A stretch of DNA of 64,000 bases from Neglectibacter timonensis. Its GTDB lineage: Bacteria; Bacillota; Clostridia; Oscillospirales; Acutalibacteraceae. The notes below the pieces were generated by a model that searched no databases, was not told the DNA's origin, and saw nothing but the letters and a program-made list of their open reading frames with translations. Location: positions 1,194,758-1,258,757 of the forward strand of contig NZ_LT160640.1 of the NCBI RefSeq assembly GCF_900048895.1, given 5' to 3'. Shown in pieces: positions 4,342-52,085 of this stretch (positions are counted from its first letter, which is position 1; every line of letters starts with the position of its first letter). The position numbers and the translations under genes were made by a program.

Positions 4342-5255
4342 CAGTCGTCACCTACCTGTTTATTGCTCGTCAGCTTGATGGTGGCGAAGGAGACGATGGC
4401 CACAATCACAAAGAGGATCATGGACTCTGCCACAGACTGTGCAAACTTTCCTTCGCTCATGGCATGACGGTAGATCAGGATGCCGATAGCTTCCGTCGCC
4501 TGGGCGGGGCCGCCGTCGGTCATAGCCTTGATGTAGTCGAAAATGGTCAGGCCGCCCTTTGTAGTTGTGATGACCACCATGGTGATGATCGGGATCAGGA
4601 AGGGGACCGTGATCGCTTTAAACTTCTGCCAGGCATTGGCGCCGTCAATAGTAGCCGCCTCATAGAGGTCCTTGGGCACGCTCTGCAGGCCGGCGACAAA
4701 CAGCACCGTCGGAATGGCGCAGCCCTGCCACAGGTTGACGATCAAAACGCCGAACATGGCAGTTTTGGGATTTCCCAAAATATTTGTGCTCAAAAAACCG
4801 ATGCCCAGGGATTTGCCGATCACCGGCAGAGCCCGGAGGAACAGCTCGTTCCAAATCAGGCCCACAGTTACCAGGCTGAGCACAGCGGGAATAAAATAGA
4901 CCGAGCGGAAGAATGTACTGGATTTCCCCAGCTGGTTCAGTGCCAGTGCGATGAGCAGGGAAAGCAGGATCGTCCCGATCACCAGGCAGATGGTATACTT
5001 GAAGTTGAAGAAAATAGCATTGTAAAAACGCTTATCCTGCAGGACCGTCGCATAGTTTTTCAGACCGATAAAATCAAAGGTCTTGCTGATGCCGGTCCAG
5101 TTTGTCAGGCTGTAATACACGCCCAGAATCATCGGCACCAGGAAAAATACCGAGTAGAGAATCAGAACAGGGAGAGTAAACAGCACCATGACCACGTTCT
5201 TCCTCTGCAGGCCGTTTTTCGGCCTATCCGCACCCTGCGCGGGGAGTTTTGACAT
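4341..5255 (-). CDS. Sugar ABC transporter permease, MalF/UgpA type
   Basis: 304-residue permease with six predicted membrane helices, the first at ~25-48 after a short basic cytoplasmic tail. The EAA loop follows the fifth segment (EAATIDGANAW). It pairs with the MalG-type permease that overlaps its stop codon by one base. The start ATG at 5255 has GAGGAGGTG upstream at normal spacing. It lies 83 bases after the solute-binding protein gene, and a strong hairpin sits in that gap. Confidence 0.93.
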   Translation of the reverse strand: MSKLPAQGADRPKNGLQRKNVVMVLFTLPVLILYSVFFLVPMILGVYYSLTNWTGISKTFDFIGLKNYATVLQDKRFYNAIFFNFKYTICLVIGTILLSLLIALALNQLGKSSTFFRSVYFIPAVLSLVTVGLIWNELFLRALPVIGKSLGIGFLSTNILGNPKTAMFGVLIVNLWQGCAIPTVLFVAGLQSVPKDLYEAATIDGANAWQKFKAITVPFLIPIITMVVITTTKGGLTIFDYIKAMTDGGPAQATEAIGILIYRHAMSEGKFAQSVAESMILFVIVAIVSFATIKLTSNKQVGDD

Positions 5256-43073: not shown

Positions 43074-44291
43074 TCAGTCTTTGGCAGGCTCCCACTTTCC
43101 GGTATCGCGAACCCGATAAGCCGTTCCATCCGGGGCGTATTTGTACCAGACGGCGCCCTTTTCCGCCTGGCCCGCCTCCGGGTCCAGTACACCGGACACC
43201 AGTTCCGTCCAACGGCGATCGTATTCCAGATGATAGAACTTTCCATCGATATCCACGGCATTGACGATCGCTTCGATTTTTGCGGTGCTGCCCACCTTGA
43301 CTGCAGCAATATTTTTCCAGCTTTCCACCTCGGGAGCCATAAATTCCGCATACCGGCCGGTCATCCGGAGATCCCCGTCTTTGGTAAGGCCGACGATCAT
43401 ACCGTCCGACATGCTGAGGCAGGCCAGGGATCCCCAGCTCAAAATCTCGTCCGCATAATCGCCGCAGGCCATCACCGTGCCGTCGTACTGGATTCCCGCA
43501 ATGGTCAGCGCCGGCTCTTCCATATCATTGGCGACGCCGATCATGGCCATCTTCTCCCATTGAAAGCAATCCATACCCATATAGTCCGTTCCTCCGCCGC
43601 TACAGACGAACGCCTGACCAGCCTGGTTTAACAGGAAAAAATCATGCTTATCCACGGCAACGCCCGAAAGCGTACCGGATACCGGCGCGCCCTGTTCCGA
43701 AGACAGATTCTGGAAATTGACGTTCCATGCAGTGCGGGCTACCGTTTTGCCGCTGCCGGTGTCGATATAATTTTCCGGATTGGATTCCCGCAGCGCAGCA
43801 TTGATCTTGCCGGTATCCCGGCAATCGATGTTGAACACCTTATCCCCGGAAATAAACATGCCGCTTTCATTTACATTGGTGGTGGCATAGGCAATGTCCT
43901 GCACCCCATCCGCCACCTTCTGCTGCCGGTAATACAGCCCGCCGTCTTTCGTCAGGGTAAACACAGTCATGCCGCTGGCGGAGACAGCCAGCTTTTTTTT
44001 ATCTTCCACAGCGGCGGAATCCGCCGCCAATCCATCCCAACTCTTCTCCTGGCAGGTCAGAACCGAGCCGTCGTCAGCCAGGAAATAGGTGGAGGAAGAC
44101 AGTTGATTGCCGGCCTCCATAGCACTTTTCACATATTCTGCGGTTTCGGCATTTTCCTGCTGCGCCGACAACGCGCTGCCCACGCTTTCAGGCGAGGAAA
44201 AGGGGTCGGCGCTGTCACAGCCTGCCGCCAGTCCTGCCATCATGACTGCCGCCAGCAGACCGGTCAAAATACGTTTCCCTGCAAATTTCAT
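43074..44291 (-). CDS. Lipoprotein with RCC1-like beta-propeller repeats
   Basis: 405-residue surface lipoprotein: signal peptide MKFAGKRILTG, lipobox LAAGC with C25. The mature part has recurring ~50-residue blocks around short strands such as TKDGGLYYR, QYDGTVMACGDYADEIL and TKDGDLRMTGRY. These resemble RCC1/beta-propeller repeats (inference). The C-terminal ~30 residues include a KGAVWYKYAPDG stretch. The start is the ATG at 44291; a longer frame upstream lacks a signal peptide. It lies 136 bases past the 4-TM gene in the sigma-factor locus. Function unknown. Confidence 0.8.
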   Translation of the reverse strand: MKFAGKRILTGLLAAVMMAGLAAGCDSADPFSSPESVGSALSAQQENAETAEYVKSAMEAGNQLSSSTYFLADDGSVLTCQEKSWDGLAADSAAVEDKKKLAVSASGMTVFTLTKDGGLYYRQQKVADGVQDIAYATTNVNESGMFISGDKVFNIDCRDTGKINAALRESNPENYIDTGSGKTVARTAWNVNFQNLSSEQGAPVSGTLSGVAVDKHDFFLLNQAGQAFVCSGGGTDYMGMDCFQWEKMAMIGVANDMEEPALTIAGIQYDGTVMACGDYADEILSWGSLACLSMSDGMIVGLTKDGDLRMTGRYAEFMAPEVESWKNIAAVKVGSTAKIEAIVNAVDIDGKFYHLEYDRRWTELVSGVLDPEAGQAEKGAVWYKYAPDGTAYRVRDTGKWEPAKD

Positions 44292-44427: not shown

Positions 44428-44979
44428 TCATCCCCGGCGCCAGCCGTTGGGCAGCCCGTCCGACAAATCCGAAGTGTAGAATTGCACCTGGCGGCCGGTC
44501 TTCTCACAATAATAGTCGGCATGGTCGCCGCTGTCACTGAGCAGCCGGAACTGGTTTTCTTCGGGGTCGTAGAGTATGGCTGGGAAAGCGGTCCCGTCCT
44601 TTCCGCTTTCCATGGGAACATGGGCCACAATAGCGGCCAGCAGCCGCCAGCAGAAGCCGCAGCCAATCAGGCAGGCCGCAAAAGGCAGTAGAATGCGCTG
44701 CTTCACGGTCTGGCAGCGGGTCAGCATGACATAGACCATATATCCCAGGCAAAGAATCATAACGATCACCCCAAGAATGATTTCCAGCGCAGAAACGTTG
44801 GACTCCCCGGTAACAGTTCCAATGATTTGTCCGACGCTCGACGCCAGAAGCATAATGCCCAGCAGAACGAGGTAGGAACCGCCGACGCCAATGGTTCCAG
44901 CATATTTTCTCCGCAGAGGGTTATAGGCGCAAAATCCCAGAATCATGAAAGCTACCGCCGCGATAATCAAAAATGGCAT
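44428..44979 (-). CDS. Four-helix membrane protein with GDHADYY C-terminal module
   Basis: 183 residues. Helices lie at ~2-18, ~33-50, ~64-84 and ~97-115, followed by a soluble C-terminus. Residues ~130-168 (PAILYD...GDHADYY) align with the C-terminal module of the SEL1 protein encoded just upstream (PSIVYD...GDHAEYY). GAGGAT precedes the ATG. No known family recognised. Confidence 0.75.
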   Translation of the reverse strand: MPFLIIAAVAFMILGFCAYNPLRRKYAGTIGVGGSYLVLLGIMLLASSVGQIIGTVTGESNVSALEIILGVIVMILCLGYMVYVMLTRCQTVKQRILLPFAACLIGCGFCWRLLAAIVAHVPMESGKDGTAFPAILYDPEENQFRLLSDSGDHADYYCEKTGRQVQFYTSDLSDGLPNGWRRG

Positions 44980-45026: not shown

Positions 45027-46421
45027 TTAATACCAGTGCAGGGTACCGGCGCTGGTATTGGCCGAGCTGCCGGAAATTTCGGCGTTCCAGATGGTCACCG
45101 TGTCGCCGTTGTCGTTGTAATACTCAGCGTGGTCGCCGTAAATGCCCCGGCGCTGCCACCGGTTGTTTCCGCTGTCATAGACGATGGAGGGTATCCGGGA
45201 CAAATCGTAGGTGGTGTCGCTGAAGCCGGGTTCGCGGGCTCCTTCTGCTTCGTCATAACCTGAACTCTCGCCCTCATCGTCTTCGGGCCCGTCATCCGGG
45301 TTTTGCAGCTCCACATTCACCCGCGGCGGTTTGGTTTCCGCGTGGATTCCGGTCACCCCCTGCATCACCGCCAGATGAGAGCGCAAGTCCCTCCTGATCT
45401 GTTCGGCCGCATTCAGCCACTGCTCCTCATGCTCTCTGTCAATGACCGCCAGCTGCAGGGCAGCGCTCAGACTGCCGTTTTCTGCTGCGGCACGAATGAG
45501 CCGGAGGCCTTCTTCCCGATTGACCTGGGTTCCGATGCCCTTCAGGTAGCAGTTTCCCAGCATATAGCAGGCGTACACACTGCCTTCCTCACCGGCAGCC
45601 TTATAGTAAAGAGCAGCATCTTTCTGTGGATCCAGGCCCAATTCTTCTTCCCCGATTTTCCGGATGCCATAGAGGAATTCTTCCATCAGCGCGGCGCCTT
45701 CCACCAGGCTGTTCTGCACCATATCCTTGGCAAACAGCACCGCCAGCGTGGCATATTCCTTCGTGGGACGAGGCCAGCCTCCCAGCATGGTATGGATAAT
45801 ATTCATCTGTTTGTTGACATCGTTTTTCTTCTGCGCTGCAAGAAAGGCGTTTTTATAGTAGTCCTGGGCCTTTTCCACATCCACGGCGCAGCCCTCGCCG
45901 CCGGAATAGGCGTAGGCCAGCTCCTCCCAACAGTCGTAAATGATGTGCAGGTCGTCCACCTTAAACCGGTCCCGGTTCACGACATCCATGCAGACCTCCA
46001 ACAGGATTTCATAGTAATAGACGGATTTGGCAGCATCCCTTGGGTAGACGCCGTCGTATCCCATCTGGTAGGCCATAGCTGTGAAATGGCAGGCGTCGAA
46101 AAAGAGATCGGCGTCCATATAGGGAGTATTGGCGTCAGCCGGCAGATTGGCCCGATCCCGCTTAAACGCCGCATATCCCAGGTCGGCCGTCTGTCGGGCA
46201 CAGAGCAGGCCATACACGCTTTCCATAGGGGAACTCTCGTAATTCTTATATGCCTTCCGCAGCTTATTGGGTACCACATAGCTCTGCCCGTCCGGTCCGG
46301 TAACGGTTGTACCGTTTTCCGGAGGAGGCTGCGCGGCCTCTCCGCTTTGGTTCTTTTTCTTGTAACTCCGCCATACGAAAAAAATGACGGCGGCCGCCAG
46401 GATGATGAATGGTACTGACAT
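45027..46421 (-). CDS. Membrane-anchored SEL1-like repeat protein
   Basis: 464 residues. An N-terminal membrane anchor (~2-20, MSVPFIILAAAVIFFVW) is followed by a basic stop-transfer (RSYKKK) and a long helical region. SEL1/TPR-like repeats lie at ~270-345 (YYKAAGEEGSVYACYMLGNC and following). A low-complexity acidic stretch precedes the C-terminal module with IPSIVYD and GDHAEYY (~429). AAAGGAG is nine bases ahead of the ATG at 46421. It lies 59 bases after the stand-alone sigma gene. As the first membrane protein after an ECF sigma factor, it might be that factor's regulator (inference). Confidence 0.8.
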   Translation of the reverse strand: MSVPFIILAAAVIFFVWRSYKKKNQSGEAAQPPPENGTTVTGPDGQSYVVPNKLRKAYKNYESSPMESVYGLLCARQTADLGYAAFKRDRANLPADANTPYMDADLFFDACHFTAMAYQMGYDGVYPRDAAKSVYYYEILLEVCMDVVNRDRFKVDDLHIIYDCWEELAYAYSGGEGCAVDVEKAQDYYKNAFLAAQKKNDVNKQMNIIHTMLGGWPRPTKEYATLAVLFAKDMVQNSLVEGAALMEEFLYGIRKIGEEELGLDPQKDAALYYKAAGEEGSVYACYMLGNCYLKGIGTQVNREEGLRLIRAAAENGSLSAALQLAVIDREHEEQWLNAAEQIRRDLRSHLAVMQGVTGIHAETKPPRVNVELQNPDDGPEDDEGESSGYDEAEGAREPGFSDTTYDLSRIPSIVYDSGNNRWQRRGIYGDHAEYYNDNGDTVTIWNAEISGSSANTSAGTLHWY

Positions 46422-46480
46422 GGCAAATTTCTCCTTTTTAAGTAAGTGTATATCATCGGACACAGTGCCCGCAGATACCG

Positions 46481-46990
46481 TTATAACTCCATCTGCTGCA
46501 TCAGCTTTTTTAAAGCACGCTGCAGACGTTTCCTGACGCGTTCATACTTCATATCCAGCCTGGCGGCGATTTCCCTGGCAGAACAGCCTTCATAATACTT
46601 GAAACGCAGGATACGCGCATCCAATTCCGGAAGCCGGGCAAGGGCCTGGTTCACCTGTTCCCGCCGTTCCCATGCCCCGATGTCGTCGGCCTCTGCCGGT
46701 GACGCTTGAGAAGCAAGCCACTGCCGCTGATTCTCCCGCCACTGGCGGATGGCTTTGCGTGTGGAGATGGTGACCAGATACCCCCGCAGGCTTCCCTTGG
46801 ATGGGTCAAACCGGTTTCTCTGCAGATAAAAATCCGAGAAAGTATCCTGAACACAGACCCATATGTCTGCCTCATTGTTCAGCCGCTGAGCGGCTGCCAG
46901 ACGCACCGGTTCACCGTACAGGATCTGCAGCAGTTTCATCCCGTCCACCGGACTGGCATCCAGTATTTTCAGAAGTTGAGAATCCTCCAA
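46481..46990 (-). CDS. ECF-type sigma factor, paralogue of the fusion protein's N-terminus
   Basis: 169-residue sigma factor with region 2 (~20-90, FSDFYLQRNRFDPSKGSLRG) and region 4 (~110-160, CSAREIAARLDMKYERVRKR). It aligns closely with residues 1-165 of the fusion sigma factor: FDPxKGxLxGYL, WRENQR and SAREIAA/TAREIAA are shared. I prefer the TTG at 46990, eight bases after AGGAAG and aligned with the paralogue's start; the GTG at 46999 sits too close to that site. No anti-sigma gene of known type follows. Confidence 0.87.
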   Translation of the reverse strand: MEDSQLLKILDASPVDGMKLLQILYGEPVRLAAAQRLNNEADIWVCVQDTFSDFYLQRNRFDPSKGSLRGYLVTISTRKAIRQWRENQRQWLASQASPAEADDIGAWERREQVNQALARLPELDARILRFKYYEGCSAREIAARLDMKYERVRKRLQRALKKLMQQMEL

Positions 46991-47015
46991 GCGCTTCACT
47001 TCCTTCCACTAACTA

Positions 47016-47043
47016 ATTGCGGATTCAGAAGCAAAAAGGGACA
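47016..47043 (-). promoter_or_regulatory. ECF-type promoter motif ahead of the stand-alone sigma gene
   Basis: Minus strand TGTCCC (47043-47038), 16 bases starting with a T-run, then CGCAAT (47021-47016). It matches the motif ahead of the fusion sigma gene and differs from sigma-A promoters in the window. Confidence 0.6.
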
Positions 47044-47067: not shown

Positions 47068-47100
47068 AAGCGGCCCTCCTGATTTACAGGAGGGCCGCTT
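47068..47100 (-). terminator. Terminator after the sigma-fusion gene
   Basis: Perfect 14-base stem AAGCGGCCCTCCTG / CAGGAGGGCCGCTT with loop ATTTA, 12 bases past the stop. The minus-strand flank is GTTTC, so the T-run is weak. Confidence 0.8.
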
Positions 47101-47112
47101 CATTCGGAGAAC

Positions 47113-49659
47113 TTATTCCGGAATGGTAACAGGAATGTCAAAAGTGTGGTTCCAGCGGTAGGTGGGATTGACAAAGGTGAAGTCAGCGGTATAGAGCCCC
47201 GGCACATGGTGCAGCAGCAGTCCGCTGAAGCGGACTCCGGTTTCCTCAAAGGAATACTGCCTTTCACAGGCTCCGAGGAAGGAGGCCTCTTCGGTCATCC
47301 ACAGCCGTATCCCCACGTCCACCAAGATATACTCCTCTTTCCCCGACTCCAGGGAGAGATCCAAAATCGATGTCAACGGGGCATTTTCCGGGGTTGAGAT
47401 CGCTCCGTTGGAATGAGTAATCGCCGCAGCACCGGCGGACGGCTCAAAGTTTTCGGCCGGTCCCATGCCGGTGATCGTATTCAGGACGAGAGTTGTCTCG
47501 TAATCCAGAGGCAAAGATTCCACAGACAGCTCCTGTCCCTCTTCCTGGGGCAGCGGGATATCCATATGATGCTCCCCCCGCACCGTTGTGTAGAGATAAG
47601 GAACATGAAGGGTATACTGTCCCGTTGGAACGTCCCCGAAGTCCCAGTCGCTGTAAGCATCCGTACGTCCAGGCCGGAAATTCCCCATGTACACCCTTCC
47701 GCATGTATCAGTCAGAGTGATGGGCTCGTCCGCCTCCCCCATTGCCGTCAGAGGACTGCGGACAATGCTGCCGGAGGGAAGCAAATGGTCCTTTTCTGAC
47801 GCAGGGCGCAGGGAAAGGATTACCTGGTCGCTGACCCTGCGGGGAACGGCCGTCAGGGTGTAGTCCCCGGCGCTCTGCGTGAACTTCTCCCGCTCTTCCT
47901 CGGGCGGCACCGTCATGGGAATGGAAAAAGAATGGTTCCAGCGATAGCAGACGCTTTCCGTTTGGATGGAAAAAGCCACGCTGTCCCAGCCCTCCATAGC
48001 TCCCAACACGTAGCCGGGCGACATGGTATACAGGCTTCCAGTGTCCGGATCCGCCGCAGCTCTGGTCCACAGTTTGATCTCGGTATTGGAACAGGACATC
48101 CCGTCCACCACGGTATGGCCGGTTTGCTCAGCCGCGGCGGGAATTGCTGCCGGGAACCGCTCCGGATCCTTCCCCTCCCAGATGGTTTCCAGTGACCACC
48201 ATTGGTACCCCAATGTATTGTGCATGTCGGATACAGTGTCACAATATGCGGTTACGTCGAAAATTGGGGCCGGCTCCCCAAACATCAGCCTGCCGCCGGG
48301 CAGGGAAAGACACGTACCAGCGCCGCTGCCGTCCCCATCCAGGATTGCCTCTGCGCTTCTCGGCGCTTTGTCAGCGGCAGGATACTGATAGACATATGGG
48401 ATGTGCAGGATATAATTTCCCGGCTGGGCCGGGCCGAAATACCAGTCCAGATAGGTGTCCCCACTGAAGGGATTGTAAGAGGCCGGTTCCCCCTTCCATA
48501 CAGCGCCGTCCGGCGAGACAACGGTAACGGGCTGGTCGGGACCGCCGTAGCCCTTCCATACCCCCTGGTTGAGAAAGAAATAGGTGCTGAACTCCCCCTC
48601 GTTCAGCGGATGGATGGAAACCACCAGCTCCCCGTTCTCGATCCGGGGTACAGCCAGCAAACCTCCATCCGACTCGGTCACTGCATAAAAGCCCGCTTCT
48701 TCTACGGAACTCTTGTCCGCCGCCGAGAGCGTCACAGGGATATCTGTTCCATCCAGGGTCATGGTCAGGCACAGGGTATTTCCGACGCCTTCTGGAAGTT
48801 CCCCCTCAAAAATGACCCGCAGGGAGTAGCCGCCGGCCGCTGTTTGTCCATCGTGGCTTTTGGATATGTGCCGGACATTGTCCAGGCCGCTGAGAGAGGT
48901 GCTCAGATAGTTTTGATAGGGATTGTTTTCGCCATACAGTGTTAAATCGGCGATGAAAGAGCCCTCCTGCCAATAGGCATCTTCCAAATGGAACTCATAC
49001 TGTTCTCCGGATACCACCGTACCGCTTTCCAGAACATAAACGGCTGCACTGCCGCTGGAAACACCATAACCGGGCACAAAACCGAAATGGCGCAGAACCG
49101 CATACGTGCAGGCGGCCAGCAGGCCCAGAAGAGCGGCTACTACCAGACCTATTGCCAGTCCCTTCAGCAGCTTTTTCATACTGCGCTGATATCGTTTTTT
49201 CACCGTCTCGTAGGGCAGGCCGAGAGAGGCGGCGATCTCCCGGGCAGTCATTCCGCCGTAGTATTTCATGCGGACAATTTGCTCGTCTAACGGCTCCAGC
49301 GCGGCAAGAGCCGCCTCCAACTCGTCCTTGCTTTCCATGCGGGAGAAAGGATCGGATTCCTCCTGTTCCTGCGGGGCGGCCCCTTCCCAACGCTGGTTCT
49401 CCCGCCAGCGGCGCTGGGCACACCGGCGGGCAATGACCGCCAGATACCCCTTCAAAGCGCCTTTTTCCGGGTCGAACCGTTCCCTATGTAAGTAAAATTC
49501 AGAAAATATTTCATTGACGCACTCTTTCACATCTTCGGTGTTTTGCAGGTATTGGTGGCATACCGTCCACAGCAGTCCACTGTATTCCTCAATCAGAAGC
49601 GCCATTCCCTCCTCAGGCTCACGGTCCAGAAGGGAGATGATGGTTTGGTCTTTTTGCAT
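47113..49659 (-). CDS. ECF sigma factor fused to TM helix and large extracytoplasmic region
   Basis: 848-residue single chain. Residues ~18-90 are sigma region 2 (TEDVKECVNEIFSEFYLHRE) and ~112-165 sigma region 4 with its helix-turn-helix (TAREIAASLGLPYETVKK). One hydrophobic helix lies at ~167-189, and ~190-848 is extracytoplasmic. Residues ~200-320 resemble the ectodomain of DUF4179 anti-sigma proteins. The rest is a tandem duplication: ~326-585 and ~598-848 share GNYILHIPYVY/GQYTLHVPYLY and RWNHSFSIPMTVP/RWNHTFDIPVTIP. Sigma factors are normally soluble; here the factor is tied to its own sensor. AGGAGA precedes the ATG. The reading frame is unbroken, so it is not two misjoined genes unless the assembly is wrong. 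Mechanism (regulated cleavage or tethered action) is unknown. Confidence 0.9.
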   Translation of the reverse strand: MQKDQTIISLLDREPEEGMALLIEEYSGLLWTVCHQYLQNTEDVKECVNEIFSEFYLHRERFDPEKGALKGYLAVIARRCAQRRWRENQRWEGAAPQEQEESDPFSRMESKDELEAALAALEPLDEQIVRMKYYGGMTAREIAASLGLPYETVKKRYQRSMKKLLKGLAIGLVVAALLGLLAACTYAVLRHFGFVPGYGVSSGSAAVYVLESGTVVSGEQYEFHLEDAYWQEGSFIADLTLYGENNPYQNYLSTSLSGLDNVRHISKSHDGQTAAGGYSLRVIFEGELPEGVGNTLCLTMTLDGTDIPVTLSAADKSSVEEAGFYAVTESDGGLLAVPRIENGELVVSIHPLNEGEFSTYFFLNQGVWKGYGGPDQPVTVVSPDGAVWKGEPASYNPFSGDTYLDWYFGPAQPGNYILHIPYVYQYPAADKAPRSAEAILDGDGSGAGTCLSLPGGRLMFGEPAPIFDVTAYCDTVSDMHNTLGYQWWSLETIWEGKDPERFPAAIPAAAEQTGHTVVDGMSCSNTEIKLWTRAAADPDTGSLYTMSPGYVLGAMEGWDSVAFSIQTESVCYRWNHSFSIPMTVPPEEEREKFTQSAGDYTLTAVPRRVSDQVILSLRPASEKDHLLPSGSIVRSPLTAMGEADEPITLTDTCGRVYMGNFRPGRTDAYSDWDFGDVPTGQYTLHVPYLYTTVRGEHHMDIPLPQEEGQELSVESLPLDYETTLVLNTITGMGPAENFEPSAGAAAITHSNGAISTPENAPLTSILDLSLESGKEEYILVDVGIRLWMTEEASFLGACERQYSFEETGVRFSGLLLHHVPGLYTADFTFVNPTYRWNHTFDIPVTIPE

Positions 49660-49697
49660 AGGCGTAATTCTCCTGTTTTTATATCTCTATAAAAGTA

Positions 49698-49724
49698 TTG
49701 TCGCACAATCAAAAAAAAGGGACA
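49698..49724 (-). promoter_or_regulatory. ECF-type promoter motif ahead of the sigma-fusion gene
   Basis: Minus strand TGTCCC (49724-49719), 15 bases starting with eight T, then CGACAA (49703-49698), ~40 bases ahead of the ATG. It shares the element with the paralogous sigma gene, consistent with autoregulation. Confidence 0.6.
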
Positions 49725-49830: not shown

Positions 49831-49890
49831 GCTGATAAGAAGAACGCAGACACCCACAAAAGTGTGAGTGTCTGCGTTCTTCTTATCAGC
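49831..49890 (-). terminator. Long hairpin terminator after the HTH-GH51 gene
   Basis: Perfect 23-base stem (49831-49853 with 49868-49890), with CACA/TGTG pairing continuing inside. It lies ~110 bases past the GH51 stop. The sequence resembles the hairpin at 37921-37963 (AAGAAGA, CGC and CCCACA in the same order). Confidence 0.8.
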
Positions 49891-50000: not shown

Positions 50001-52085
50001 TTAAAACCGCAGCAGCAGGACGCTGTGCGGGGGCATACACAGCGAGCCGTTCCGGGCCTGTTCCAGAATATCCCTCTTCTCAAAAGCAGAGGGAGGCAGA
50101 ACGGTGGAACTGGTGTAAAGTATGGCCTCCCGGCAGGGGCCGTACTGAGAGAAATCCACAGGTTTTTCCCTGCAGAAAGAGGCGTTCACAAGGGTGGCCG
50201 TCACCGCATTTTCCCGGTCAACTGTGACCACGGCCTCTTGGGAAGCGGAACACACACGGTTCCCGGCATGGCGGTTCATCAGGGAAAACATCTGGCCCTG
50301 GGCTGTCAGGCTGACGCCTTCCGGCTCTACGCAGAGCATCCCCTCATTTACAGCCTGAAAATGGCAGGCAAGCGCCACACCGCTTTTTTCAGCTTCCTCC
50401 ATCAGCAGGTGCATGGCCAGCGCGGCATAGATGCCGTCTGTCACGCTTGAGGGCCGGTACCAGGCATACCAGACATTCCACTCGTCCAAAGAGATACTCA
50501 CATTGGGTTCCAGCCAGCGGCGGGATTCACGGATGAGCGCCCTCATCCGCGGGATGGAGGCCAAACACCTGTTATATTCCTGCTCTATCGTGGAGATATC
50601 TGTGTAGGAGGGATCATATCCGTAGTAATGCTGGGAGATCATCTGGGCGATGCCGGACAGGGGCCGCGCTGAAAGCTCCGCCCACTCCTTGCTGGGATAA
50701 GGGCCGGAGGAGCACAGGCTGAGGTTGTGGGATACCTCCAGCATTTTTTTGCCGTTTTCCAAAGCGGTCTGGCAGTAACCGCTGGGGGAATTATCCCCTT
50801 CCATGTGACCATATCCAAATTCGTTGCCCAAAGACCAGAGCTGCACATGATAGGGCTCCTCATATCCCCGTTCCGCTCTGAGCCGCCCATATTTTGTAGA
50901 GCGGTCGCCGTTGCAGTATTCCACCCACGCTGCGTTTTCCTCCGGAGTGTTCCAGCACGGGTTGATGGTGATGAACGGTTCCGCGCCTATCTCCCTGCAC
51001 AGAGCGATAAAATCGTCTGTATTGATCTCATGATAATCGTATCCCATAGAATGGGGCTGCGTCTCCAGGCCAAGGAATGATTGGAAGGGAGCCCGCATAT
51101 CCACTGGAAGAAGCCCATCCATCCAGCTGTACTCCCCAGCGAAATTGCCTCCCGGCCAGCGCAGAACCTTGATCCCAATTTCCGCCATTTTCTCGACCAC
51201 ATCCCGGCGCATTCCCCGGAAATGATCCTTTGGCAAAAGGGACAGGGCCCCAAAACAGACGCTCCCCTCCCCTTCCCACTGAATGCGCAGATCCGCGTCC
51301 CGGTCAGCGGCATTTGGGGTAAGTTCTATCTCGTATCGGATCCACTCTTCCGACTCCGCCGCAATCACGCCGCAGTCGTACACAAGGTTCCCCTCCCGGT
51401 CTGTCAGGGCCACAGAAAGGGTGACAGGCCCCTTTGTCCGCACCACCGCTCCAAACAGATAGTTCTTCCCCTGCTGAATGGAAAGGCCATGCTGCCCCAG
51501 ACCCGCGGTCTGTCCCGGGAACGGATTCAGGATGCTTAGGGAGTTGCACTCCAGCGCCCGCTTCATGTGATACCCTTCCCCGTGACGGGTGTACGGCCGA
51601 TCGAAAGTAAAAACCGCCCTCTCTCCAATGGGATACCATTCTGCCGCGCAGCCTTTACAGGCGGAAGGTTTTCCTGCGAATTTCCGGTTTCGCAGCAGCT
51701 GTGCAGACAATCCTCCCTGAATGCAGGAACGGGTGTGTTCCAAATTGCTTCCAAAAAGATAGGGAGATACCATCAGGTCTCCGGCGTCCAAAGGCTGCAG
51801 GGAAAGAGGCTTGGCATAATCCACCTCTTCCCTGGCCGCAGCTTCCCCGTCCAGATTACTGCTGCGGGCAACATCGAGAATCTCCCCGCTCAGTATCTCG
51901 ATAACGCTCACCCGCAGTTCTGCCGCCAAGCGGTTGAACAATGAGATATCAGGCAAACTTTTCCCCCTCTCCCATTTAGAAACCGCCTTGTCCGTAACAT
52001 CCAGCCGCTGGGCAAGCTCAGCCTGGGTCATTCCCAAAGCCGTCCGCAGCTGGGCGATCAGACGGCCTGTCTGTGTCATGTTCAT
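50001..52085 (-). CDS. XRE helix-turn-helix fused to GH51 alpha-L-arabinofuranosidase
   Basis: 694-residue fusion. Residues ~6-65 are an XRE/HTH_3 DNA-binding domain (LGMTQAELAQRLDVTDKAVS, KWERGKSLPD). A short linker (~70-100) joins it to a complete GH51 barrel and C-terminal beta domain. Both catalytic residues are present: acid/base E422 in WSLGNE and nucleophile E535 in ISLDEWNVWY. No signal peptide. GGAGGAG precedes the ATG. The frame is continuous through the junction. It could be an enzyme that represses its own synthesis, or a regulator that reads sugars through a glycosidase domain; sequence cannot decide. It is divergent from the ferredoxin-type aldo/keto reductase gene. Confidence 0.93.
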   Translation of the reverse strand: MNMTQTGRLIAQLRTALGMTQAELAQRLDVTDKAVSKWERGKSLPDISLFNRLAAELRVSVIEILSGEILDVARSSNLDGEAAAREEVDYAKPLSLQPLDAGDLMVSPYLFGSNLEHTRSCIQGGLSAQLLRNRKFAGKPSACKGCAAEWYPIGERAVFTFDRPYTRHGEGYHMKRALECNSLSILNPFPGQTAGLGQHGLSIQQGKNYLFGAVVRTKGPVTLSVALTDREGNLVYDCGVIAAESEEWIRYEIELTPNAADRDADLRIQWEGEGSVCFGALSLLPKDHFRGMRRDVVEKMAEIGIKVLRWPGGNFAGEYSWMDGLLPVDMRAPFQSFLGLETQPHSMGYDYHEINTDDFIALCREIGAEPFITINPCWNTPEENAAWVEYCNGDRSTKYGRLRAERGYEEPYHVQLWSLGNEFGYGHMEGDNSPSGYCQTALENGKKMLEVSHNLSLCSSGPYPSKEWAELSARPLSGIAQMISQHYYGYDPSYTDISTIEQEYNRCLASIPRMRALIRESRRWLEPNVSISLDEWNVWYAWYRPSSVTDGIYAALAMHLLMEEAEKSGVALACHFQAVNEGMLCVEPEGVSLTAQGQMFSLMNRHAGNRVCSASQEAVVTVDRENAVTATLVNASFCREKPVDFSQYGPCREAILYTSSTVLPPSAFEKRDILEQARNGSLCMPPHSVLLLRF

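Follow-up and report, generated by a model that had tools for sequence, protein, structure and literature searches.

Extracytoplasmic function (ECF) sigma factors normally depend on a separate membrane anti-sigma factor, and the closest described counterparts of the protein reported here include one-piece exceptions. The protein, encoded in a single open reading frame (ORF) of Neglectibacter timonensis (contig NZ_LT160640.1; analysed within a stretch of 64,000 nucleotides, hereafter the window), combines an ECF sigma factor, a membrane helix and a receptor-like ectodomain. In the single polypeptide IutY of Pseudomonas putida, the ECF sigma domain is cytosolic and a lone membrane segment connects it to a periplasmic domain; Prc trims the protein and RseP cuts it, which releases the sigma domain; a variant without the membrane segment, IutY-168, is described, and all mutant variants retaining periplasmic residues need RseP for activity (PMC5411451). 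The same report calls the one-piece sigma/receptor unique, and the protein corresponds to ECF243 in PMC8999054. In Streptomyces, the ECF52 protein SCO4117 is a sigma-membrane segment-ectodomain protein with a zinc finger (PMC5826349), and the actinobacterial groups ECF52, ECF48 and ECF53 share this order, with the zinc finger, a likely anti-sigma element, before the helix and with proteolytic release proposed (PMC5826349, PMC8999054); a proline-rich stretch and a carbohydrate-binding domain are described for ECF52. The DUF4179 anti-sigma factors RsiV and BAS1627, placed in ECF30 of the Firmicutes (PMC6066255), are separate proteins; each has a cytoplasmic arm, and also a juxtamembrane helix, which in RsiV contains the signal peptidase site. 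This site belongs to the DUF4179 region of RsiV, with putative amphipathic helices guarding it; BAS1627 is unrelated to RsiV outside that region (PMC6066255).

The N. timonensis protein resembles IutY in joining a sigma domain, a single membrane segment and an extracytoplasmic domain in one polypeptide. IutY is a Gram-negative protein with a cell-surface-signalling (CSS) anti-sigma periplasmic domain, an outer-membrane siderophore receptor and Prc/RseP processing, whereas the protein described here has an ectodomain that is probably DUF4179-type, the distinction resting on domain content and on the published description; a FecR/CSS-type domain gave no Pfam match in 20 fused members at an expectation value (E) of 0.1. 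The actinobacterial zinc finger and carbohydrate-binding domain likewise had no Pfam match in the N. timonensis protein, and there is no room for a zinc finger between the helix-turn-helix (HTH) and the membrane segment. The protein is linked to the DUF4179 anti-sigma factors, through two-gene relatives, by a homologous membrane-proximal region and ectodomain, and differs from them in having no arm and in a shorter, changed juxtamembrane stretch. The initial annotation had called this the strongest candidate in the window for an undescribed signalling design; 'undescribed' is too strong, as IutY (PMC5411451) and SCO4117 (PMC5826349) already share the layout. A literature search at the level of titles and abstract openings, with the 2021 ECF re-classification and the 2020 ECF-evolution paper outside its reach, found no Gram-positive fusion of a sigma factor, membrane segment and DUF4179 ectodomain. 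As far as searched, the independent Gram-positive lineage, the origin of the ectodomain, the missing zinc finger or arm, the candidate release site and the predicted regulon are new, and the design looks like an invention separate from those of Pseudomonas and Streptomyces.

Architecture and conservation of the fused protein

The 848-residue protein begins, as annotated, with a complete ECF sigma factor in which Sigma70_r2 (PF04542, residues 22-90, E 1.1e-13) and Sigma70_r4_2 (PF08281, residues 112-164, E 3.8e-13) both score above the Pfam cut-off. The top NCBI model for the protein is the ECF superfamily TIGR02937 (E 1.1e-25), and no region 1 or region 3 model in Pfam matched, as expected of an ECF sigma factor. 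The annotated membrane helix corresponds to the only hydrophobic segment by hydropathy, residues 162-192, and sigma factor, helix and a receptor-like ectodomain of ~650 residues lie in one polypeptide. The claim that the ectodomain consists of two copies of one unit stands in part: the duplication is real (23% identity over 283 columns, E 1.6e-13), but the first ~125 ectodomain residues lie outside the copies and 16 of the 20 aligned relatives have a single C-terminal unit. The second unit is present in this protein and in those of L010-L012, and the later finds L099, L101 and L102 also gave a second match to the unit. Residues 190-848 matched no Pfam family at E 1 and NCBIfam likewise gave nothing for the ectodomain, while searches against PDB sequences returned one weak, unrelated match (E 0.015) in one run and none in the other. 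An internal start at residue 161, which would give a lipoprotein-like beginning (MKKLLKG...LAAC), was rejected; no ribosome-binding site precedes it by eye, and the equivalent residue is Leu or Ile in 22 of 23 fused proteins.

A scan of genome contigs yielded 20 homologous loci, of which 17 hold 19 intact single-frame ORFs with the same domain order. The remainder are L025, with a frame change after the helix, L028, which is split over several frames, and L029, which retains a sigma domain only. There is no frameshift or misassembly near position 49150, since the proteins of L010, L011 and L012 match this one over its full length in a single frame (63, 63 and 57% identity). Homologues are not always two genes, although those deeper relatives that were found have that form. 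The 17 loci come from records of Bacillota, including Flavonifractor, Lachnoclostridium, Mordavella, Claveliimonas, Faecalicatena, Dorea, Ca. Avimonas and Ca. Howiella, named carriers that we take to be gut bacteria.

The fused gene is rare and patchily spread. Among 60 genomes (its own, 28 congeners and 31 others) the ectodomain was matched only in its own, the rest giving a sigma-domain match or nothing. A helix-ectodomain profile matched 4 of 391 genomes of the class (its own and three two-gene forms) and 2 of 398 of the phylum (its own and one two-gene form). In the family of L027's genome (397 genomes) there were eight matches, seven fused, including three known before, and one without sigma; in that of L012's genome (400 genomes) there were six, namely L012's own, L100, L099 and L101-L103. 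L100 is L019's contig again, with the same protein start, and was left out of the counts. In L099 and L101-L103 sigma domain, helix and ectodomain are in one frame, which in L102 carries a stop in the second unit.

Two other arrangements were noted. L108 (216-3095, minus strand), from a genome of the family of N. timonensis, encodes a second, different sigma-membrane-ectodomain fusion of 959 residues, with sigma homology to ~180, a marginal hydrophobic stretch at ~193-216, a membrane segment at ~307-336 and ~600 residues beyond. In L031 (741-2037, minus strand) a related sigma gene overlaps a membrane-protein gene whose outside part is ankyrin-like by eye and not DUF4179.

Origin of the ectodomain and the helix junction

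In five other genomes (L061, L062/L066, L063, L067/L068 and L065) the ectodomain has a gene of its own, immediately downstream of a sigma gene. The product of this second gene has a ~55-75-residue cytoplasmic arm, a membrane helix and then, in most, the stretch RLFGFIPGYG. Profile-profile comparison of two-gene and fused ectodomains gave E 7.3e-15 (probability 98.4, 300 columns, 15% identity), and DUF4179 was detected in the two two-gene relatives scanned at E 2.9e-4 and 0.015, with 21.6 and 16.2 bits, under the Pfam cut-off of 30.1. An ectodomain model, the structure prediction advised by the initial annotation, reached a predicted local distance difference test (pLDDT) score of 80.9, and its sole PDB match below E 0.001 in Foldseek was 3FBQ (E 2.0e-4, probability 1.00), the ectodomain of BAS1627 (PMC6066255); the full-length model matched 3FBQ too (E 6.7e-4). 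By homology, the ectodomain probably corresponds to the extracytoplasmic portion of a DUF4179-type anti-sigma factor, an identification made because the deeper relatives are two-gene sigma/anti-sigma pairs. Taken together, the two-gene relatives, the profile match and 3FBQ suggest, as the simplest view of the fused protein, a sigma factor attached to the extracytoplasmic half of its anti-sigma factor, with the cytoplasmic arm lost. This indicates that a one-piece sigma/receptor arose separately in Gram-positive bacteria, from a sigma gene and an anti-sigma outside half whose arm was discarded.

The arm is missing from all 20 aligned fused members, and their juxtamembrane stretch is shorter and altered compared with the two-gene relatives. 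Between an arginine of the HTH and a cysteine column near the end of the helix there are only 21-24 residues in 23 of 23 fused proteins, leaving no room for an anti-sigma domain. The full-length AlphaFold2 model (pLDDT 75.8, predicted template modelling score 0.49) has a single helix at residues 150-192, in which the DNA-recognition helix of region 4 continues into the membrane helix; pLDDT is 67-77 by blocks along this helix and drops to 43 at 191-200. The model suggests that the tethered sigma factor would be unable to engage a promoter.

The outer end of the helix carries the consensus L-[ASTV]-A-C-[AT]-Y. Its cysteine is present in 22 of 23 aligned and 27 of 31 distinct fused proteins, and the strict lipobox pattern, [LVI][ASTVI][GAS]C, in 20 of 23 and in 25 of 31 (the other eight read by eye), at a site that follows a cytoplasmic domain of ~160 residues. 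Variants at this site are LAGC in L089, A-S-A without cysteine, resembling a signal peptidase I site, in L090 and L091, and serine in L023. Relative to the cysteine column, positions -3 and -1 hold small residues in 22 of 22 sequences; relative to the next column they do so in 21, and elsewhere in at most 10; the 22 were drawn from 27, with the near-copies L011, the second L016, both L018 and L022 left out, L089-L091 aligned by hand and L101 found later. The column has no cysteine in the two-gene relatives. These observations point to a conserved signal-peptidase-like site at the point where the helix emerges on the outer side. The N. timonensis genome encodes Lsp and M50 proteases, as is usual (found in 10 and 14, respectively, of 14 control genomes).

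A homologous ectodomain (E 1.3e-9; 20 shuffles gave 0.8 or worse) also occurs as a stand-alone lipoprotein in L110 (2036-3493, plus strand), behind an ordinary lipoprotein signal ending in VAGC by eye. No sigma gene lies within the 3,948 bases fetched there.

A sigma-only paralogue is encoded beside the fused gene. An IQ-TREE phylogeny of 46 sigma domains places 20 fused domains, the sigma-only paralogues of this genome and of L012, and the small sigma factors of L016 and L018 in one group (support 92/81), and five two-gene sigma factors in a separate group (96/95). Because the sigma-only copies nest inside the fused group, the tree favours, with support short of firm, one fusion followed by two losses of the receptor half. 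For L010 and L011 the paralogue match covers just ~93 residues, with no region 4 detected; the fused gene there is intact and both promoter motifs described below are retained. The flanks fetched for 13 loci (L013-L015, L017 and L019-L027), some of them short, contained no second sigma of this kind.

Promoter motifs and predicted release of the sigma domain

TGTCCC, a T-run and YAAT 18 bases past TGTCCC were found upstream of the N. timonensis fused gene and paralogue and of the fused genes in L010-L012. As the pattern TGTCCCNTTT-N14-YAAT, the motif has exactly two sites in the 3.67-Mb genome, one at the fused gene and one at the paralogue (reversed control 0). The genomes of L010, L011 and L012 likewise have exactly two sites each, again one upstream of the fused gene and one upstream of the paralogue, the reversed control giving one match in L011's genome. 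Five of these eight sites shaped the pattern; the other three, paralogue sites, are independent, as are both sites of L099, a fresh genome in which the motif is at both places within the 4,275 bases fetched. The motif is absent from the stretches fetched for L100-L103, and with up to two mismatches there was no excess in the window (3 found versus 3.0 expected). Since the L010 and L011 paralogues have no region 4 and the motifs are nevertheless kept, the sequences favour the fused sigma domain over the paralogue as the candidate reader of the motif. A sigma-70 promoter scan was uninformative (3 found versus 2.2 expected, none at the fused gene).

A different element, GGTTAnnTTTnACCTTGTTG, occurs in other fused-gene members. 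With one mismatch allowed it had eight matches in nine genomes (reversed control 0; none in four of the nine), located at five known fused genes, two new ones (L081, L084) and a lipoprotein gene (L083). A leave-one-locus-out matrix, in which close relatives stay in training, located 26 sites across 17 loci (169,301 bases) versus 1.4 expected by Markov resampling, L083 having been fetched on account of the motif. Ten of the sites precede fused genes (one of them the broken L028), three have no suitable ORF and 13 precede other ORFs, including sigma-only genes (L016, L018), lipoproteins (L026, L027, L083), a secreted protein (L021, L022, L028) and divergent genes (L013, L015). No matrix site was found at the fused genes of L014, L017, L019, L020, L023 and L025 or at the second copies of L016 and L018. 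From the genes that these sites precede, the predicted regulon would comprise the receptor-sigma itself, sigma-only copies and envelope proteins. By eye, the fused-gene promoter of L016 and L018 lies within a long inverted repeat, AATTGTTAAACTTTACATG ... CATGTAAACTTTAACAATT (~4826-4900), so that the promoter element lies in both directions. Kinship of lipoproteins to that of L083 was rejected, as it was mostly signal-peptide similarity among seven candidates; with the first 60 residues removed, one of four tested still matched (L026, E 5e-6 in a four-sequence search).

The initial annotation rightly inferred that a sigma factor joined to its helix and ectodomain would have to be released by cleavage or to act at the membrane. 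It appears probable that the protein is a tethered, self-inducing sigma/receptor freed by intramembrane proteolysis. The sigma domain would be held at the membrane by the helix that continues its own region 4, until the DUF4179-type ectodomain senses an extracellular signal and a cleavage site is exposed. Signal peptidase would cut where the helix exits the membrane, and a site-2 (M50) protease would then free the sigma domain, which with RNA polymerase would transcribe its own gene and the paralogue operon. The paralogue, having no anchor, would amplify the response, and predicted targets in relatives include lipoprotein and other secreted-protein genes. The proposed order follows the analogy with IutY and the role of signal peptidase as site-1 protease of RsiV and RsiP (PMC6066255, PMC8844934), each cleavage step being proposed by analogy. 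The sequences themselves show a fusion that is conserved and intact, a homologous sigma/anti-sigma system in two genes, the lack of a cytoplasmic anti-sigma segment, a promoter motif common and confined to the two sigma genes and a conserved signal-peptidase-like site; membrane sequestration, cleavage, protease order and feedback are what we infer.

A more specific scheme, tentative and rather doubtful, treats the protein as a lipoprotein-type signal anchor whose unusually large N-region is the sigma domain. Lipidation plus a signal peptidase II cut at LAAC would yield a surface lipoprotein and a stub for the site-2 protease, so that lipoprotein maturation would itself be the signalling step, some lineages having swapped to a signal peptidase I site. 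No paper naming release of a sigma factor by lipoprotein maturation was found at title and abstract level. It is unlikely that signal peptidase simply cuts every exported copy, regardless of signal, into a free sigma factor and a separate envelope protein or lipoprotein: the frequent lipobox-like motif and the L110 lipoprotein would suit such processing, but the cysteine is missing in some members, the dedicated promoter motif shared with the paralogue suggests a switched system and the DUF4179 region of RsiV is described as shielded from signal peptidase until ligand binds.

Action at the membrane without cleavage, in which a ligand would shift orientation or oligomeric state so that the sigma domain captures RNA polymerase and promoters, is an improbable alternative. 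CadC and ToxR are ordinary transcription factors that act while membrane-bound, the N. timonensis protein is a single-pass fusion with a receptor ectodomain and intact regions 2 and 4, and the paralogue could serve distant promoters; the continuous helix of the model and the constant spacing nevertheless leave no linker between region 4 and the membrane, and the IutY variants that keep periplasmic residues are all described as needing RseP. There is little likelihood that the paralogue is the working sigma factor and the fused sigma domain a membrane-bound decoy, or that the ectodomain has a function unrelated to its sigma domain, since the truncated L010 and L011 paralogues beside intact fused genes, and the 13 loci without a second sigma in their flanks, speak against it, even though the paralogue adjoins the fused gene and has the same promoter motif. 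An artefact (frameshift, misassembly or pseudogene) can be dismissed because the single-frame fusion is kept across 17 of 20 loci and further genomes, the broken L025 and L028 and the stop in L102 notwithstanding.

Several points weigh against release of a tethered sigma factor and against the origin proposed for its receptor half. The support for release is computational throughout. Four of the 31 members are without the cysteine (three Ser, one Arg), and the Arg of L101 breaks the small-x-small rule. The position of the motif upstream does not tell which sigma factor reads it; the TGTCCC motif was found only in close kin, and in other members a different element, or neither, was found. None of the 20 fused proteins gave a DUF4179 match in Pfam at E 0.1, the 3FBQ match has low TM-scores (0.19 and 0.27) and a root mean squared deviation of 11.8 Å, and the 92/81 support of the fused clade falls below the usual threshold.

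Release of a tethered sigma factor, if true, would offer a compact chassis for one-gene biosensors, and the fusion opens the question of whether membrane tethering alone keeps a sigma factor silent. The two-site motif provides a simple reporter, and the lipobox-like site points to a chemically inhibitable enzyme, for which globomycin is an inhibitor.

Neighbouring genes and further observations

Features of the fused gene and its surroundings, in window positions
Feature	Position	Strand	Basis or remark
Fused gene: ECF sigma factor, membrane helix and receptor-like ectodomain	47113..49659	-	848 residues, ATG start, single frame
ECF sigma domain, residues 1-165	49165..49659	-	Pfam; Foldseek matches to ECF sigma structures
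Membrane helix, residues ~167-189	49093..49161	-	Hydropathy and AlphaFold2 model
LAAC, residues 181-184, lipobox-like signal-peptidase-type motif at outer end of helix	49108..49119	-	Conservation of Cys
Juxtamembrane RHFGFVPGYG, residues 190-199	49063..49092	-	Aligns with RLFGFIPGYG of two-gene anti-sigma relatives
Ectodomain N-terminal part, unduplicated, residues 200-325	48685..49062	-	Alignment and model
Ectodomain unit 1, residues 326-590	47890..48684	-	Unit-versus-unit comparison
Ectodomain unit 2, residues 591-848, duplicate of unit 1	47116..47889	-	Alignment and unit comparison
Promoter-like motif TGTCCCNTTT-N14-YAAT upstream of fused gene	49697..49724	-	Upstream reading and genome pattern search
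Sole other exact motif copy in genome, upstream of sigma-only paralogue	47016..47043	-	
Hairpin between fused gene and paralogue, probable intrinsic terminator	47069..47099	.	z -9.9
Sigma-only paralogue	46481..46999	-	172 residues, GTG start; nested among fused sigma domains in tree
Sel1-repeat protein, N-terminal hydrophobic segment (by eye)	45027..46463	-	Sel1 by Pfam
Small multi-pass membrane protein (by eye)	44428..44979	-	Homologues beside fused genes in L011, L016, L018
Lipoprotein, signal peptide and lipobox (by eye), start codon by eye	43074..44291	-	Homologues in L011, partly L010

The Sel1 gene and the sigma paralogue probably form one operon, to judge from the 17-base gap between them. 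The Sel1 protein and the small membrane protein have a C-terminal region of ~50 residues in common, with a GDHA-YY motif (31% identity, E 4e-5). Apart from an RHS repeat in L013, Pfam gave nothing on function for ten neighbouring proteins. In L019 (6980-9873) and L020 (4337-6184) the fused gene is followed by tandem genes, four and two respectively, that appear by eye to encode lipoproteins; a lipobox scan flags all four in L019 and one of two in L020.

On the other side of the fused gene, a perfect 28-pair hairpin at 49831-49890, between its promoter region and the next gene (z -12.4 for the 81-base fold), is perhaps a two-way terminator. Beyond it, a single ORF (50001-52085, minus strand) combines an XRE-type HTH (HTH_3, residues 10-63) with an arabinofuranosidase-like region, matched by the NCBIfam model ArfA at residues 290-545 with E 2.5e-36, yet far under the cut-off. 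Its domain content suggests a repressor-like domain fused to a glycoside hydrolase.

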